From Luteitalea pratensis (lineage in GTDB: Bacteria; Acidobacteriota; Vicinamibacteria; Vicinamibacterales; Vicinamibacteraceae), in assembly GCF_001618865.1 (NCBI RefSeq), contig NZ_CP015136.1, positions 7,165,001 to 7,229,000 of the forward strand: a stretch of DNA of 64,000 nt. Reading direction: 5' to 3'. Every line of letters begins with the position of its first letter. Position 1 is the first letter of the stretch. Below, piece after piece: positions 26,650-33,734 of this stretch. The notes beneath the pieces were generated by a model. It was not told where the DNA came from. It made no database searches and was given only the letters and a program-made list of their open reading frames with translations. Both the position numbers and the translations under genes were made by a program.

Positions 26650-26819
26650 GTCTCTCTCCTTTGCGCGGCCCAGTTGCGCCCCTCCATACCCTCTCGGTGA
26701 ATGGGGAAGCCGGCCGCATCGTGCCGTCATCGTCCCCGGGGGACCCGGAACCCGACGACGGAACCTGTCTGCAACGGCTTACGATGCGGAGTACTGGCCG
26801 GATTGTCAACTGTGACGCA

Positions 26820-26849
26820 TTGACAGCCCCGCTGGTCCCCGGCTACGCT
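26820..26849 (+). promoter_or_regulatory. Candidate sigma-70 promoter of the his leader
   Basis: A perfect -35 TTGACA (26820-26825) is followed after 18 bases by a weak -10 TACGCT (26844-26849). A start about seven bases downstream would lie almost on the leader ATG, giving a leaderless or nearly leaderless leader transcript. This fits poorly with ordinary initiation, so the true promoter may lie further upstream. Confidence 0.3.
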
Positions 26850-26858
26850 TTCGGGGTC

Positions 26859-26939
26859 ATGGCGTGCCGCAGCCAGCATCATCACCATCGCCACCAGGCC
26901 CACGCCCGTGGGACCGGTGATGGTCTGCGCGCCTGCTGA
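26859..26939 (+). CDS. hisL: Histidine-rich leader peptide of the his operon
   Basis: A 26-codon open frame with six histidine codons at positions 7, 8, 9, 10, 12 and 15 (HHHHRHQAH), ending at TGA 26937-26939. A run this dense, placed just before a Rho-independent terminator and then hisI, is the standard architecture of ribosome-mediated attenuation. Ribosomes stall on these codons when charged His-tRNA is scarce. No strong ribosome-binding site is visible before the ATG. The peptide itself has no expected function. Confidence 0.85.
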   Translation: MACRSQHHHHRHQAHARGTGDGLRAC

Positions 26940-26994
26940 ACACGACGTTCGCACTACCCGAACAACAGCACGCCTCCTGCAGCCTCGCTGGTCC
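26899..26994 (+). promoter_or_regulatory. his attenuator: pause hairpin and antiterminator pairing
   Basis: Strand 1 CCCAC (26899-26903, which includes the last His codon) pairs with strand 2 GTGGG (26908-26912), loop GCCC. Strand 2 also overlaps GGACCGGTGA (26911-26920), which can pair with TCGCTGGTCC (26985-26994): 10 continuous pairs with two G-U wobbles. That pairing takes away the left arm of the terminator (26983-26991). So a ribosome stalled on the His codons masks strand 1 and frees strand 2 for antitermination; without stalling 1:2 and 3:4 form. Drawn by hand; energies not computed. Confidence 0.72.
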
Positions 26995-27010
26995 ACCCAG
27001 CGGGGTTTTT
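26983..27010 (+). terminator. Rho-independent attenuator terminator before hisI
   Basis: CCTCGCTGG (26983-26991), loop TCCAC, CCAGCGGGG (26997-27005): a 9-bp stem with one G-U pair, followed by TTTTTGTGTTTT. It lies between the His leader peptide and hisI, 31 bases before the hisI start, and is one of the few hairpins in this GC-rich window with a real T-run, which supports a regulatory role. Confidence 0.88.
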
Positions 27011-27041
27011 GTGTTTTCAGGGGCTTTTCCAGGGATCCGGG

Positions 27042-27353
27042 ATGGACTTCGACAAGTTTCACGGGCTGGTGCCCGCCGTGGTGCAGGACGACGCGAGCAA
27101 CGAGGTGCTGATGGTCGGCTTCATGAACGCGGAGGCGCTGCAACGGACCCGCGAGACGGGGTTCGTGACCTTCTTCAGCCGTACCCGCAAAGCGCTCTGG
27201 ATGAAGGGCGAGACGTCGGGCAACCGCCTGAGGGTGGTCCGCCTGCTCACCGACTGCGACACCGACACCGTGCTGGCCCGCGTCGAGCGGCAGGGTGACG
27301 GCCTCGTCTGCCACCTCGGGACCGTCAGCTGCTTCACCCAGGAGATCGCCTGA
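27042..27353 (+). CDS. hisI: Phosphoribosyl-AMP cyclohydrolase
   Basis: A 103-residue enzyme of the third step of histidine synthesis, opening the adenine ring of phosphoribosyl-AMP. Seen: the [10 protein letters not shown] opening, [18 protein letters not shown] and the metal-site run [11 protein letters not shown], with further cysteines in VCHLGTVSC. The length shows a HisI-only protein, with no fused HisE pyrophosphatase domain. ATG 27042 is the first structural start after the attenuator. It is the first gene of an eight-gene run and sits two bases before hisG. Confidence 0.93.
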
Positions 27354-27355
27354 GC

Positions 27356-28240
27356 ATGCCGCCCCTTCGCCTCGGCATCCCCAAGGGTTCGCTGCAGGAC
27401 TCCACCGTGCAGCTGTTTGCGCGCGCCGGCTGGAACATCTATGTCAGCTCGCGCTCCTACTTCCCGGGCACCGACGACAGCGAGCTGGAGTGCATGCTGA
27501 TCCGCGCCCAGGAGATGGCCCGGTACGTGGCTGACGGCGTCATCGACGCGGGGCTCACGGGACAGGACTGGATCGCCGAGCAGCTCATCGCCTCCCGCGC
27601 CGAAGTCGTGCCGGTACAGGAACTGGTCTACTCGAAGCAGAGCTTCGGGACGGTCAAGTGGGTGCTCGCGGCGCCTGAGGACTCACGCTTCAAGACGCCC
27701 AAGGACTTCGCCGGCTGCACCATCGCCACCGAGCTGGTCCGTGTCACCCAGCAGTATTTCGAGGAACGCGGCGTAGATGTCACGGTCGAGTTCTCCTGGG
27801 GAGCGACCGAGGTCAAGCCGCCCGTGCTTGCCGACGGCATCGTCGAAGCGACGGAAACCGGCTCGACGCTGCGCGCGAACCGGCTGCGGATCATCGACAC
27901 CGTGATGGAATCCAAGACCCAGCTGATCGCCAATCCCGCGGCGTGGGCCGACGCCTGGAAGCGCACCAAGATCGAGAACATCGCCCTGCTGCTGCGCGCC
28001 GCGATCGAGGCGCAGGGTCGCGTCGGGCTGATGCTCAACGTCAGGCGCGAGGGGTTGGCGCGTTTGCTGGAGTTGGTGCCTGCGCTGCGCCGTCCCACGA
28101 TTTCGCCGCTGAGCGATGACGAGTGGGTGGCCGTGAACACGATCATCGAGGAGCGGACCGTGCGCGACCTGGTCCCGAAGCTCAAGTCTGCTGGCGCAGA
28201 GGGCATCGTCGAGTATCCCCTCAACAAGATCGTGATGTGA
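27356..28240 (+). CDS. hisG: ATP phosphoribosyltransferase (long form)
   Basis: A 294-residue first enzyme of histidine synthesis, joining ATP and PRPP. The catalytic part has [34 protein letters not shown] and the PRPP loop [14 protein letters not shown]. The C-terminal 75 residues ([21 protein letters not shown] to the end) form the regulatory ACT-like domain of the long form, which binds histidine, so HisZ is not needed. Stop and next start are only a few bases apart. The pathway therefore has both feedback inhibition and leader attenuation. Confidence 0.94.
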
Positions 28241-28242
28241 AC

Positions 28243-29556
28243 ATGCTGCCGATTCTCGAGTCCACCGACACCAGGGCGTTGCGGCGGTTGCTGGATCGCA
28301 CGCCGGACGATCACGCCCGGATCGAGCCGGCGGTGCGGGACATCCTTGGCGCGGTGCGCACGCGAGGCGACAAGGCGCTGGTGGAGTTCGCGCGCAAGTT
28401 CGACCGCCTCGAGGGACCGATCGAATTGTCACCCGCGGAGATCCATGCCGGCGCCGGGGACTGCCCCCGCGAAGTACGGGCGGCCATCCGCAAGGCAGCG
28501 CGACACATCCGGATGGTGGCCAGGGCGCAGGTGCCGGCCACATGGACGAAGCAGGTGGCGCCAGGGGTCAAGGTGTCCCAGCGCGTGGTGCCGCTCGAGC
28601 GCGTCGGCTGCTACGTCCCGGGCGGGCGTTACCCGCTGCCGTCGTCACTCCTGATGGCTGCGGTCACGGCACGCGCGGCCGGCGTGCCCGAAGTCATCGT
28701 GACGTGCCCGCGTCCGGACGCCTCGGTGCTCGCCGCGGCCGTCGAAGCGGGTGTGGACCGGATCTTCCAGCTTGGTGGCGCGCAGGCCATCGCGGCGCTG
28801 GCCTATGGCACGGCCACCGTGCCGCGCGTGGACAAGATCGTCGGACCGGGGAACGCGTACGTCGCGCTGGCCAAGGCGCTCGTGGCCCGCGACTGCGCCA
28901 TCGATTTCTTCGCCGGACCGAGCGAGATCGTCGTCGTCGCCAGCTCCGGTGATCCCGCGTGGATCGCCGCCGATCTGCTCGCGCAGGCGGAGCACGACGT
29001 CGATGCCCGCGCCCTCTTCCTCACGCCATCGCGCCGACTCGCGCAGCAGGTCGCGCGCGCGATCGAGGCGCAGCTGGCCGGACCCGATGCGCAGGGCACA
29101 CCGGCACGCGACTCACTCGCGCGCAATGGCGCGATCGTCGTGACCCGGACTATCGCGGAGGCGGCCGCGCTGGCGAACCGCATCGCGCCGGAACACCTCG
29201 TGGTCGACACGCCCGAACTCGGTGCGTCGATTCCGGTGGCGGGCTCGATCTTCGTCGGCGCCTGGACGGCGCAGGCCGCCGGTGATTACGCCATCGGCTC
29301 CAATCACGTGCTGCCGACCAGCGGCGCGGCGCGGTTCCGCGGCGGCCTGCACGCCTGGGATTTCGTGCGGGTCTCGACCGTCCAGCAACTCACGAAACGG
29401 GGCGTGGCGTTGGTCGGGCCGACCGCGGCGACGCTGGCTGATGCCGAAGGCCTGAAGCTGCATGCGGCATCGATCCGCGCCCGGCTCGGCATCGCACCGA
29501 AGGTTGGGCCGGTGAAAGCACGGGCCCGCCGTCCATCCGCGCGGAGCAGCCGATGA
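28243..29556 (+). CDS. hisD: Histidinol dehydrogenase
   Basis: A 437-residue zinc enzyme that oxidises L-histidinol to histidine in two NAD steps. It has QRVVPLERVGCYVPGGRYPLPSS, the NAD segment VDKIVGPGNAYVALAKALV, LAQAEHDVDARALFLTPS and GSNHVLPTSGAARFRGGLHAWDFVR, which carries substrate and zinc residues. ATG 28243 gives the usual family length; GTG 28237 would overlap the hisG stop and adds two residues. The C-terminal tail is Arg- and Ser-rich. It overlaps hisC by four bases (ATGA). Confidence 0.93.
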   Translation: MLPILESTDTRALRRLLDRTPDDHARIEPAVRDILGAVRTRGDKALVEFARKFDRLEGPIELSPAEIHAGAGDCPREVRAAIRKAARHIRMVARAQVPATWTKQVAPGVKVSQRVVPLERVGCYVPGGRYPLPSSLLMAAVTARAAGVPEVIVTCPRPDASVLAAAVEAGVDRIFQLGGAQAIAALAYGTATVPRVDKIVGPGNAYVALAKALVARDCAIDFFAGPSEIVVVASSGDPAWIAADLLAQAEHDVDARALFLTPSRRLAQQVARAIEAQLAGPDAQGTPARDSLARNGAIVVTRTIAEAAALANRIAPEHLVVDTPELGASIPVAGSIFVGAWTAQAAGDYAIGSNHVLPTSGAARFRGGLHAWDFVRVSTVQQLTKRGVALVGPTAATLADAEGLKLHAASIRARLGIAPKVGPVKARARRPSARSSR

Positions 29557-30797
29557 CCACTGCGCGAGCAGGCGATCGGGCCGGGACGTCCGGCTCCATG
29601 GAACGTCCTGGCACGGTGGCGCCAGCCGGTGCGAACCAGTACGAGTACGACCGTGCCGACGCGCCGGCCGACGCCCTGCGGCTGCACCTCAACGAGCACA
29701 CGGGCGGCTGCTCGGCCGCCGTCACCGAAGCCGTGGCGCGAGTCACGCGCGAGACAGTCGCGAAGTACCCGGACTACACGGCGGTCACGCGCGCCGTTGC
29801 CGATCACCTCGATGTGCCGACCTCGCGCGTGCTCCTCACCAATGGCCTGGACGAGGGCATCTTTGCCGTGGCGATTGCGCAGCTTCGGCCGCCAGGTGTA
29901 GCTGCCGGACTCGTCCGGCAGCCTGCGCGCGGGACAAGTCCCGCGCCTGCTCCTGTTTCGGCGAGCGGAACAGGTCGGAAGTCGCGAATCGTCGCGGGTA
30001 GCCTGCAGCCTGTCGCGTGTGGCCTGAACGAGGCCTTGATCCTGGAACCGGCGTTCGGCATGTACGCCGATGCCGTCGAGGCCGTCGGCGGCACCGTCGT
30101 GCGCGTGATGCCGGGAGCGGGCCTGTCGCTCGATCGCGAGGCGATCGCTGCGGCCGTCACGCCGCTCACCGGCGCGCTGTTTGTCGCCAGCCCAGGTAAC
30201 CCCAGCGGTATTTCGTTGACCTTGGCCGAGATCACCTGGCTTGCCTCGCTGTTGCCAGCTGGCGCGCTCCTGCTCCTCGACGAGGCCTATGTCGAGTTCG
30301 GCGGGGAGAGCTTCATCCCGCATCTCGACAGGTGGTCGAATGTCGTGGTCGGCCGAACGTTTGCCAAGGCTTACGGGTTGGCCGGCATGCGAGTCGGCGC
30401 GGTCGTGGCTCGCGAGGACGTCATCACCCGATTGCGACGCGTGCTGCCGCCCTACAGCCTGAACGTCTTCGTAGTCGCCGCCCTGGAAGCCGCCCTCGGC
30501 GACCGTGCCTACATGGACGACTACCGCGCCCAGGTGGCCGAGTCGAAGCGACTCCTGTACGACGCATGCGAGCGCTGGGGCCTGCCCTGCGTGAGGAGCG
30601 ACGCCAACTTCGTGCTGGTACGCGCGGGCGACAAGCGGCAGGCGCTGCTCGACGGCCTCCAGGCACGCAACATCTACATCCGCGATCGAGACCGGCAACC
30701 GGGCTGCGAGGGCTGCGTGCGCGTGACCACCGGTCTCGTGACCCACACGACGACATGCATCGCGGCCATGGAGGAGATCCTGTGCGCAAGGGCGTGA
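29553..30797 (+). CDS. hisC: Histidinol-phosphate aminotransferase with in-frame repeat insertion
   Basis: A 414-residue PLP aminotransferase of the seventh step. Family motifs are [33 protein letters not shown] and the PLP lysine in [14 protein letters not shown]. It is about 50 residues longer than usual HisC proteins. The excess lies between AIAQLRPPG and [13 protein letters not shown]: roughly 43 residues of low-complexity sequence encoded by three palindromes and a heptad repeat (29896-30028). In the fold this is the surface connection after the first cofactor-domain helix, so the enzyme may tolerate it. The N-terminus is also extended by Thr/Ala/Gly-rich sequence. It overlaps hisB by 16 bases. 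Confidence 0.92.
29896..30028 (+). repeat. Palindrome and heptad-repeat insertion inside hisC
   Basis: In order: GCTGCCGGAC-TC-GTCCGGCAGC (29901-29922, 10-bp perfect stem), GCGCGGGAC-AA-GTCCCGCGC (29927-29946, 9-bp perfect stem), CCTGTT/AACAGG (about 29951-29973) and a degenerate period-7 run GCCTGCA GCCTGTC GCGTGTG GCCTGAA (30001-30028). Elements with the same GGAC-AA-GTCC centre and GCCTGCA unit occur in true intergenic DNA near 55066 and 48808. The insertion keeps the reading frame. Confidence 0.82.
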
Positions 30798-31369
30798 TCG
30801 CGCGGCACACCCGCGAGACCAAGATCGACATCGCGCTGGGCATCGAGGGCAAGGGTCGCTACCAGGTGCATACCGGCATCCGGTTCTTCGACCACATGCT
30901 GGAGCTCTTCACGCGCCACGGCGCCTTCGACCTGACAATGACGGCAGACGGCGACCTCGACGTCGACCAGCATCACACCGTCGAGGACGTCGGGATCGCG
31001 CTTGGCGAGGCCTTCACGATGGCACTCGGCACGAAGGTGGGCATCAACCGCGCCGGCTATTTCCTGATGCCGATGGACGAGACGCTGGCAATTGCGGCGG
31101 TCGACCTCAGCGGGCGTCCGCACGCGGTCGTGGAACTCGGCGTCAAGGTGCGCCTCGTTGGCGACCTGCAGGTCGAGCTGTTGCACGACTTCTTCGAGGG
31201 CTTCGCCCAGGGCGCGCGCGCCAACGTCCACGTCAAGGTGATGTACGGCCGGTCCAGCCACCATCGCGTCGAAGCCGTGTTCAAGGCCTTCGCACGCGCC
31301 ATGCGCGTGGCCTGCGCGAAGGACAAGCAACTGGCGCGCATGCTGCCGAGCACGAAGGGGCTGCTGTGA
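30782..31369 (+). CDS. hisB: Imidazoleglycerol-phosphate dehydratase
   Basis: A 195-residue monofunctional HisB (no HisN phosphatase domain). Metal-binding histidine motifs are visible: [30 protein letters not shown] and [20 protein letters not shown]. It removes water from imidazoleglycerol phosphate to give imidazoleacetol phosphate. GTG 30782, preceded by GAGGAG, sets the start inside the hisC end; the longer frame upstream is antisense-like filler. It ends in a GTGA overlap with hisH. Confidence 0.94.
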
Positions 31370-32178
31370 TCGTCGCGCTCATCGACTACAAGGCGGGCAA
31401 CCTGACGTCCGTGCGCAAGGCCCTGGCCGCGCTCGGCGCGGAGATCCTGACGCCCGACTCTCCGGCAGATCTCGACCGCGCGGACGCGATCATCGTCCCC
31501 GGCGTCGGACACTTCGAGGCAACCGCAGCCCTCGACGCCGGGTGGCACAGCGCGATCCGCTCGCGGCTGGCCGCAGGTGTCCCGCTGCTCGGCATCTGTC
31601 TCGGGCAGCAATGGCTGTTCGAGGGCAGCGACGAGGCGCCCGACGTGCCCGGCCTGGGCGTGTTTCCGGGCCGCTGCGTGAAGCTGGACCCTGCGCGCGG
31701 GCTCATGGATGACCGGGCCCCCGGTGCCCGGTACCCGGTGCCCGGATCTTTGAAGGTGCCGCACGTCGGCTGGAACGCGCTCAAGCAGACAACCCGTTCG
31801 TCACGACTGCTCGCAGGCGTCCAGGACGAGGCGCAGGCCTACTTCACGCACTCGTACGTCGCGCCCGACAGCGACGCGACCGTCGCCATCACCGAGCACG
31901 GCGTGCCCTTCGCGAGCGTCGTCGAGCACGGCCTCGTGTTCGGCGCGCAATTCCATCCAGAGAAGAGTGGCGAGACGGGCCTGAAGATGCTCCGCAATTT
32001 TCTCGAGGTCGCAGAGGAAGGCCGGGCTCGGAGAGCCGGCCCTACCGGTGCGACTCAGCCACTCCCGACTCCCGACTTGTCCCGCCGAAGCCCTCGGGCG
32101 AAGGCGGCTGCCCGATTCCCGCCTGGATTCGACGGCCGAAGGCCGATTGACGAAGGCCGCTCCCGGGAGGTGCGCTGA
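31366..32178 (+). CDS. hisH: Imidazole glycerol phosphate synthase, glutaminase subunit (extended)
   Basis: A 270-residue glutamine amidotransferase subunit feeding ammonia to HisF. The nucleophile Cys lies in [15 protein letters not shown] and the His-Glu pair in [11 protein letters not shown]. Ordinary HisH is about 200-210 residues. Two additions account for the difference: about 15 residues ([15 protein letters not shown]) written by a GGTACCC-type heptad repeat just before the conserved VPHVGWN motif, and about 55 residues after LRNFLEVA written by dispersed palindromes. The frame stays open to a TGATG overlap with hisF, so coupling is kept. The internal insertion lies near the face that contacts HisF, so its effect would be worth measuring. 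Confidence 0.92.
31709..31755 (+). repeat. Heptad repeat (CGGTGCC/CGGTACC) inside hisH
   Basis: Successive units GGGCCCC CGGTGCC CGGTACC CGGTGCC CGGATCT repeat every seven bases within the coding sequence, just 5' of the codons for VPHVGWN. The same unit (GGTACCG or GGCACCG by strand) makes up intergenic arrays near 44357, 57770 and 59386, and nothing in the HisH family requires these residues. Confidence 0.8.
32014..32170 (+). repeat. Dispersed palindromes forming the hisH C-terminal extension
   Basis: Three pieces follow the last conserved HisH codon: a GGCCGGGCTC-GGA-GAGCCGGCCC palindrome (about 32020-32042) like those near 37664 and 62545; a CTCCCGA heptad (32061-32076); and GGCCGAAGGCCGATTGACGA (from 32134) like the one at 55099. 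All are read as protein up to the TGATG at 32176-32180. Confidence 0.8.
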
Positions 32179-32936
32179 TGCTGTCCAAGCGAATCATCGC
32201 GTGCCTGGACGTGCGCGACGGTCAGGTGGTCAAGGGCATCAACTTCGAGGGACTGCGCAATGCGGGCGATCCCGCCGAACTCGCGCGACGTTACAACGTC
32301 GAGGGTATCGACGAGCTCGTGATCCTCGACGTGACCGCGACGCTGGAGAAGCGGCGCACGATGGCGCGCACCGTCGCGACCGTCGCGAAGGAACTGTTCA
32401 TCCCGCTGGCAGTCGGCGGCGGCATCGCCTCCGAGGAGGATGCCGCGGCAGCGGTCGAAGCGGGGGCCGACAAGGTCAGCATCAACAGCGCCGCCGTCGC
32501 CAATCCCTCGCTCGTCACGTCCCTCGCGCGGCGCTACGGCTCGCAGGCCGTCGTCGTCGCGATCGACGCCAAGCTCGAAGGTAATCGCTTCGGCGTGTAC
32601 GTCCGCAGTGGATCCACGCCGACGGGGCGCGATGCCGTCGAATGGGCACGCGAGGCCGCCGATCGCGGCGCCGGCGAAATCCTGTTGACGTCGATCGACA
32701 AGGACGGCACGAGGAGTGGTTTCGACCTGCCGATGACCGCCGCCGTCTCGCGTGCCGTGAGCATCCCGGTGATCGCCTCGGGCGGGGCCGGCACCTTCAG
32801 CCATTTCTCGGATGTCTTCACCGAAGGCTGCGCCGACGCTGCCCTGGCCGCATCCGTCTTCCATTTCAGTGAACACGCCGTCAGCGAGCTCAAGGCGCAC
32901 CTCGACGCGCAAGGGATCCCGGTGCGCCTCCGGTAA
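32178..32936 (+). CDS. hisF: Imidazole glycerol phosphate synthase, cyclase subunit
   Basis: A 252-residue TIM-barrel cyclase that makes imidazole glycerol phosphate and AICAR. Catalytic Asp residues are in [15 protein letters not shown] and [13 protein letters not shown]; the phosphate sites are [12 protein letters not shown] and [13 protein letters not shown]. Length is standard with no insertion, unlike the neighbouring hisH. The ATG shares its A with the hisH TGA stop. Confidence 0.95.
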
Positions 32937-33050
32937 TTACCCGTCGCGCGGCGACCGAGAGTCATGCGTCGACCAAGGTCGACGCCTACGAACGCACCGC
33001 TCCCGGTTCCCGATTCCCGATTCCCGATTCCCGGTTCCCGATTCCTCCTA
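32937..33050 (+). repeat. hisF-hisA spacer: GTCGAC palindrome and TTCCCGA heptad array
   Basis: GCGTCGACC-AA-GGTCGACGC (32966-32985), followed by CTACG, is the dispersed GTCGAC element. After it, six units of period 7 (CGGTTCC, CGATTCC and similar, i.e. TTCCCGA with one or two substitutions) run from about 33003 to 33046 right up to the hisA start. No ribosome-binding site is visible for hisA, whose start is preceded by TCCTCCTA. This is the only long gap inside the operon. Confidence 0.82.
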
Positions 33051-33734
33051 ATGCTGATCCCCGCAATCGATCTCCGCGACGGCCAGGTCGTACAACTCGT
33101 CCAGGGCAAGCGGCTCGCGCTGGCCACCGACGACTGGCAGTCGTGGGTGGACAGGTTCCGGCCCTTTCCGAAAGTGCAGCTCATCGATCTCGACGCCGCC
33201 ATGGAGCGCGGCGCAAACGAGCCACTGCTTCGGAAGATCTGCGCCGAGAAGGCGTGTCGCGTCGGTGGCGGGATCCGGTCCATCGAACGTGCGCAGCACG
33301 TGCTCTCGCTCGGCGCGACGCACGTCATCGTGAGCTCGGCCCTCTTCAAGGGCGGGCATCTCGATCTCGAGTTCGCCGCACGATTGGCCGACTCGCTGGG
33401 ACGCGCGCGTGTCATCGCTGCCGTGGACAGCTCCCAGGGTGTCGTCACGATCCGCGGTTGGCAGGAGGCCACAAGGGTCACCGCGGTCGAGGCCGCCCGG
33501 GCGCTCGAGCCGTTCTGCGATGAGTTGCTCTACACCAACGTCGACACCGAGGGCCTGATGCAGGGCATCCCGATGGACGCGGTCCGCGCCGTTCGGGAGG
33601 CGACCAGCCGCCGCGTCGTCGCCGCGGGTGGCATCACCACCCAGCAGGAGATCGACGAGCTCGATGCCATGGGGGTCGATGCCGTCGTCGGCATGGCCAT
33701 CTACACGGGCCGCCTGGCACTCAGGCAACCCTGA
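33051..33734 (+). CDS. hisA: Phosphoribosylformimino-5-aminoimidazole carboxamide ribotide isomerase
   Basis: A 227-residue TIM-barrel isomerase, paralogous to HisF. The motifs are LIPAIDLRDGQVVQLVQGKR, LIDLDAAM, VGGGIRSIERA, LYTNVDTEGLMQG and VVAAGGITTQQEID, the Asp residues near positions 7 and 130 being the expected acid and base. It is slightly short for the family (usually 240-250). It is last in the run; hisE and a histidinol phosphatase are not in the window. Confidence 0.93.
   Translation: MLIPAIDLRDGQVVQLVQGKRLALATDDWQSWVDRFRPFPKVQLIDLDAAMERGANEPLLRKICAEKACRVGGGIRSIERAQHVLSLGATHVIVSSALFKGGHLDLEFAARLADSLGRARVIAAVDSSQGVVTIRGWQEATRVTAVEAARALEPFCDELLYTNVDTEGLMQGIPMDAVRAVREATSRRVVAAGGITTQQEIDELDAMGVDAVVGMAIYTGRLALRQP

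Follow-up and report, generated by a model that had tools for sequence, protein, structure and literature searches.

The window analysed here, a 64,000-nucleotide stretch of the genome of Luteitalea pratensis, a member of Acidobacteriota, Vicinamibacteria, Vicinamibacterales (bases 7165001–7229000 of a single contig of 7,480,314 bases), carries a his operon whose genes lie on one strand in the order hisI-G-D-C-B-H-F-A. Between a promoter-like pair of boxes and hisI lie a short open reading frame (ORF) rich in His codons and an intrinsic terminator, and folding predicts further RNA structures that rival one another. The features are as follows, with the basis of each in brackets.

26820..26825, + strand: −35 box TTGACA, 18 nt 5′ of the −10 box (sequence; relatives)
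26844..26849, + strand: −10 box TACGCT, its end 9 nt before the leader ATG (sequence; relatives)
26859..26939, + strand: leader ORF of 26 codons, six of them His (translation, relatives, strand and shuffle controls)
26869..26932, + strand: 1:2 structure, 26869–26899 with 26904–26932, rivalling the antiterminator if the ribosome is absent (folds)
26877..26903, + strand: putative regulatory His codons 7–10, 12 and 15 (translation)
26899..26912, + strand: small hairpin CCCAC/GTGGG, a possible pause hairpin and an alternative inside the 1:2 region (centroid fold)
26911..26920, + strand: predicted antiterminator 5′ strand, within the leader ORF (fold, stalled-ribosome energies, relatives)
26985..26994, + strand: predicted antiterminator 3′ strand, which shares bases with the terminator 5′ arm (fold, stalled-ribosome energies)
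26981..27010, + strand: intrinsic terminator, stem 26981–27007 and T-run to 27010 (terminator scan, fold; relatives)
27042..27353, + strand: hisI (PRA-CH) (ORF, domain match)
27356..28240, + strand: hisG (ORF, domain match)
28243..29556, + strand: hisD (start judged by eye within ORF 28123–29556)
29553..30797, + strand: hisC, aminotransferase class I/II (superfamily; name from context)
30332..31369, + strand: hisB (IGPD) (open frame; true start inside)
31366..32178, + strand: hisH (GATase) (superfamily; name from context)
32178..32936, + strand: hisF (His_biosynth) (superfamily; name from context)
32964..33734, + strand: hisA (His_biosynth) (superfamily; name from context; start uncertain)

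Translation of 26859–26939 gives MACRSQHHHHRHQAHARGTGDGLRAC-stop, with His at codons 7–10, 12 and 15, just as the first-pass annotation of this DNA had described its 26-codon leader. Across Vicinamibacterales, HisI is matched in 130 of 162 genomes; the upstream region was taken for all 130 loci (30 + 80 + 20) and is usable at 128 (L148 ends after 102 bases, L273 has none). A short ORF with at least three His in eight codons lies 5′ of hisI at 124 of the 128 usable loci (106/110 plus 18/20, the second batch also admitting CTG starts). Such a leader was not found at L014, L018, L019 and L279 (genomes G134, G132, G135 and G133), which are all four genomes of genus g79, and this looks like a single loss. 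In a separate count, with each ORF taken from its first start and limited to 70 codons, 103, 100 and 90 of the 128 loci carry at least three, four and five His in eight codons on the forward strand, against 9, 1 and 0 on the reverse strand and 4–10, 0–2 and 0–1 in five shuffles. The peptides differ widely across the order while the His run, promoter distance and terminator are kept; within genus g1 the tail GTGDGLRAC is alike in 5/5 loci (L001–L005).

All arms quoted in the first-pass annotation lie where it had placed them (CCCAC at 26899, GTGGG at 26908, GGACCGGTGA at 26911, TCGCTGGTCC at 26985, CCTCGCTGG at 26983 and CCAGCGGGG at 26997), as does the T-run, and our folds redraw the pairings. 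The terminator that it gave as 26983–27010 has a stem of 11 pairs, 26981–26991 with 26997–27007, and its antiterminator of ten pairs (26911–26920 with 26985–26994) is longer, the whole of 26911–26994 forming a single hairpin of −35.7 kcal/mol. The pause stem CCCAC/GTGGG is present when 26895–26960 is folded by itself and also in the centroid, and is absent from the full-leader minimum-energy fold. There the larger 1:2 structure stands in its place, an interrupted stem of 25 pairs in which the His codons are joined to the antiterminator 5′ strand. This 162-nt leader fold reaches −68.0 kcal/mol compared with −55.5 ± 3.9 for shuffles (z −3.2; 1/200 shuffles equally good). It also pairs 26861–26867, just 3′ of the leader start codon, with 26968–26974 in the spacer before the terminator, a contact that could hinder ribosome reloading after termination.

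For the untranslated leader of the window, the terminator state (1:2 plus terminator) has an energy of −68.0 kcal/mol and the antiterminator state −56.5, a cost of 11.5 kcal/mol. Stalled ribosomes were represented by placing the A site on a His codon and masking the RNA as far as 12 nt beyond the first base of that codon. The antiterminator and terminator states then compare, in kcal/mol, as −49.6 versus −48.0 at codon 7, −49.6 versus −44.6 at codon 8, −49.1 versus −42.0 at codon 9, −46.5 versus −41.0 at codon 10, −44.3 versus −38.7 at codon 12 and −33.1 versus −32.1 at codon 15, so that a stall at codons 7–10 or 12 favours the antiterminator by 1.6 to 7.1 kcal/mol and one at codon 15 by 1.0. 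A ribosome at the stop codon leaves zero antiterminator pairs, and only the terminator is possible. The comparison of 1:2+3:4 with 2:3 energies, which the first-pass annotation had offered as a check on its model, therefore comes out in that model's favour: the terminator state wins without translation and the antiterminator wins with a ribosome on the His codons.

The same arrangement recurs in relatives. A terminator hairpin with a T-rich tail lies 3′ of the leader at 102 of 106 loci of the order, a count in which the hairpin at L028 overlaps the leader ORF. Folding was scored at 101 loci, excluding L160 (wrong ORF picked) and L026, L028, L110 and L118 (script found no terminator). To represent a half-made transcript, the RNA was folded from the boundary of a ribosome halted at the second His of the run up to the terminator loop, with the 3′ arm not yet made. 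In it the terminator 5′ arm pairs with leader-ORF bases at a mean probability of 0.79, compared with 0.32 with a shuffled spacer. This pairing is at least 0.5 at 98/101 loci against 1/101 for shuffled spacers, and it ranks in the top three of 41 at 67/101 loci (7.4 expected). Once the ribosome has reached the stop codon, upstream pairing of the arm in relatives is 0.28. At full equilibrium with a stalled ribosome, terminator probability falls below 0.5 at 23/101 loci versus 1/101 by shuffle mean, and the terminator forms at 97/101 with the ribosome at the stop and at 96/101 with no ribosome, 19/101 loci behaving as expected in all three states. The equilibrium test is stricter than the mechanism demands, and the half-made-transcript test was added after it; because equilibrium suppression of the terminator is confined to those 23 loci, and the full three-state behaviour to 19, most loci would need a kinetic decision.

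Aligned relatives (90 of the 101 loci after a length filter, 89 distinct rows) support the terminator helix: 96.6% of its cells are paired and its two-sided changes number 58, a level reached by 0/200 shuffles. RNAalifold on this order-wide alignment found the terminator only, not the antiterminator, which was counted with pairs set by hand from the consensus. Its core is paired in 71.1% of cells, against at most 44.8% for slid versions, with two-sided changes in 8/10 pairs (matched by 7/500 shuffles); its outer part, at 59.7%, is no better than the 58.5% of a +2 slide. Covariation in these sequences thus lends modest support to the antiterminator. Conservation in close relatives, on which the first-pass annotation had staked its reading, holds for each part, the His-rich ORF (124/128), the terminator (102/106) and the stall-dependent antiterminator (98/101).

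Upstream of the leader, TANNNT ends 6–11 nt before some in-frame leader start at 100/106 loci (89/106 for the nearest leader start), a spacing seen before the hisI start at 0/106 and before other ATG or GTG codons at 13/2080; 9 nt is the most frequent distance (44/106 loci). At 51/106 loci a box matching TTGACA at 5 of 6 positions stands 32–34 nt 5′ of the leader start. Shine–Dalgarno (SD) cores precede the leader start at 7/106 loci versus 38/106 for hisI, and a generic sigma-70 promoter scan listed no promoter at the leader. A −10 box so placed corresponds to a transcription start at or beside the start codon. Because the spacing is conserved at 100/106 loci and at none before hisI, translation of the leader most likely takes place on a leaderless mRNA, with a transcript start predicted from sequence. 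The near-absence of space between promoter and ATG, which had been called odd, is itself conserved and would be accounted for by a leaderless start. Within this genome, the perfect pattern (TTGACA plus TANNNT directly before ATG) occurs at seven sites versus 0 in a reversed control, and the his leader is the only one of the seven with a His-type short ORF. The other six sites (L249–L254) are candidate leaderless genes. Within about 1.5 kb before trpE, leuA, pheA and ilvB, the four genes of this genome that were checked, no comparable leader for Phe, Trp, Leu or Ile/Val turned up at the thresholds applied.

Of 297 Acidobacteriota genomes, 183 have a HisG match. Among 44 loci examined outside the order and class (L204 and L206–L248), 30 carry a short ORF with four or more His in eight codons before hisG, weakly so at L243 and L248; in the other 14 (L228, L229, L231, L233–L240, L244, L245 and L247) no His leader was found. 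One is also present in six named records from further acidobacterial lineages (L055–L059 and L062). Among outside leaders, at loci picked for having a His leader, a −10 box stands at 5–11 nt in 29/31 analysed, and where a terminator is present a stall-dependent antiterminator is predicted in 24/29, against 0/29 by shuffle mean. A search to 9 kb upstream at 20 loci, partly from the same genomes, returned a His leader with a terminator or −10 box at eight (L288–L291, L294, L295, L299 and L300; of these, three have no terminator and L291 is a weak case) and nothing on the reverse strand; the 12 loci without a His leader within 9 kb belong to families f40, f33, f36, f50, f55, f25 and f26. Since 30 of the 44 outside loci have the leader and others do not, the element, as judged from sequence, is common across Acidobacteriota yet not universal. 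At hisG loci of records titled as other phyla or simply 'bacterium', 0/37 showed a His leader with a terminator (L060, L061, L063–L065 and L067–L098, several with little upstream sequence; L033, which has the leader and probably belongs to Vicinamibacterales, is not among the 37). L033 (VFYY01000076.1) is titled Acidimicrobiia and bears an Acidobacteriota-type his leader; its title is probably wrong.

A tandem form occurs in family f30, where two His-rich leaders, each with a terminator behind it, stand in series before hisG in 4/4 genomes with a HisG match (G175, G188, G198 and G218, four of the six of that class, G188 judged by eye; loci L242, L288, L289 and L302, last 560 bases). In G218, folding gives each of the two leaders an antiterminator that pairs with the arm of its own terminator. 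GAGG lies shortly 5′ of the start of the first leaders, and the 5′ region is longer in G188, G198 and G218, so these first leaders are not clearly leaderless.

We conclude, with a probability of roughly 0.9, that the element controls the his operon by ribosome-mediated transcription attenuation, with a leader peptide read from a leaderless mRNA. Its leader ORF is rich in codons for the amino acid that the operon makes, a terminator stands before the first gene, and computation predicts a mutually exclusive antiterminator. The first-pass annotation had likewise read it as a ribosome-mediated attenuator with the logic of hisL, and the His leader, the terminator, an antiterminator that in our calculations depends on ribosome position and the his genes directly 3′ all uphold that reading. 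Transcription would begin at the ATG at 26859 or a few bases away, and a ribosome would load on the bare 5′ end and trail the polymerase. With His-tRNA charged, it would pass the His and tail codons and cover or unwind 26911–26939, letting the terminator at 26981–27010 form and ending transcription before hisI. When His-tRNA is scarce, the ribosome would stall on codons 7–15 and leave the tail codons from 26911 free ahead of it; these could pair with the emerging terminator 5′ arm, block the terminator and allow transcription of the his genes. In the absence of a ribosome, the 1:2 structure would sequester the tail codons and the terminator would form.

The same attenuator could in principle operate with its leader read by SD initiation, on a transcript that starts farther upstream. 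The SD-like core in 7/106 leaders, the GAGG and longer 5′ region of the f30 first leader and the absence of any promoter at the leader from the sigma-70 list would all fit such an arrangement. However, the −10 box keeps its leaderless distance at 100/106 loci, compared with 0/106 at hisI and 13/2080 elsewhere, and 29/31 leaders analysed elsewhere in the phylum share that geometry; we regard an upstream start as unlikely.

We give very little credence to the idea of a functional small protein (metal-binding, for example) as the product of the His-rich ORF, with a terminator that merely ends its transcript: the shared tail GTGDGLRAC of the genus g1 loci is what such a protein might show, but across the order the peptides vary while the His run, promoter distance and terminator are maintained, complementarity between the tail codons and the terminator arm far exceeds that of shuffles, and the ORF always adjoins his genes in the loci examined. 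Even less credible to us is a riboswitch that binds a metabolite or, in the manner of a T-box, a tRNA, and in which the His run is incidental. A terminator with an antiterminator is, taken alone, compatible with other 5′ regulators; yet the His run is beyond chance, the computed switch is tied to ribosome position, and Rfam 15 run over the whole window returned 0 matches at gathering score, whether to the his leader, T-box or other riboswitches. A permissive scan of 26800–27100 gave three low-scoring matches to unrelated families, far below gathering score. Because no Rfam 15 family matches, annotation based on Rfam would miss the element.

Taking the element as a leaderless ribosome-mediated attenuator, we lean, with less assurance than for the locus itself, towards a wider view in which leaderless His attenuation is an old, standard his control in much of Acidobacteriota: loading at the 5′ AUG would time the switch, the tail codons would serve as the antiterminator strand, and the tandem form of f30 would act as a two-step histidine gate. 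If true, leaderless translation-coupled attenuation extends to a large, little-studied phylum and implies efficient leaderless initiation and tight transcription–translation coupling there, for both of which the element offers a natural reporter. Zheng et al. (PMC3160421) give an average of 13.3% predicted leaderless genes in three Acidobacteria genomes.

Ribosome-mediated his attenuation is classical, and its Rfam family is His_leader (RF00514). In enteric hisL the His run sits near the peptide end; here it is mid-peptide, and the antiterminator 5′ strand lies in the ORF tail. Further differences are the lack of an Rfam match, the leaderless geometry and hisI as first gene. What is shared with the his operons of E. 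coli and Salmonella (PMC3896937) is a leader peptide with His codons, a terminator before the first his gene and an antiterminator formed upon stalling. A literature search mostly outside subscription papers found no account of this attenuator in Acidobacteria, which does not prove priority, and the word 'acidobacteria' has 0 occurrences in PMC9413887. In the parts of the sources available, His-leader attenuators are proposed in Firmicutes (the Bacillus cereus group, Eubacteriales and Erysipelotrichales, and hisS/hisZ leaders of bacilli; PMC9413887, PMC2965389), which likewise combine a His peptide, terminator and antiterminator outside Proteobacteria, and those parts describe no leaderless start. 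A search on tandem attenuators found no case of two for one amino acid; Salmonella mgtCBR is reported to have two leader ORFs with attenuators in a single 5′ region (PMC3641672), a tandem arrangement like that of the f30 His leaders (not of the window) on a different operon. Leaderless precedents come from Actinobacteria: a leaderless leader peptide with terminator, antiterminator and anti-antiterminator hairpins is described at ilvBNC of Corynebacterium glutamicum (PMC11857589), and cysteine attenuation is reported for poly-Cys leaderless ORFs of mycobacteria. The predicted leaderless leader of the window would resemble these systems, which differ in phylum and amino acid. The principle is thus already known, and what looks new is the host range and the predicted leaderless architecture.
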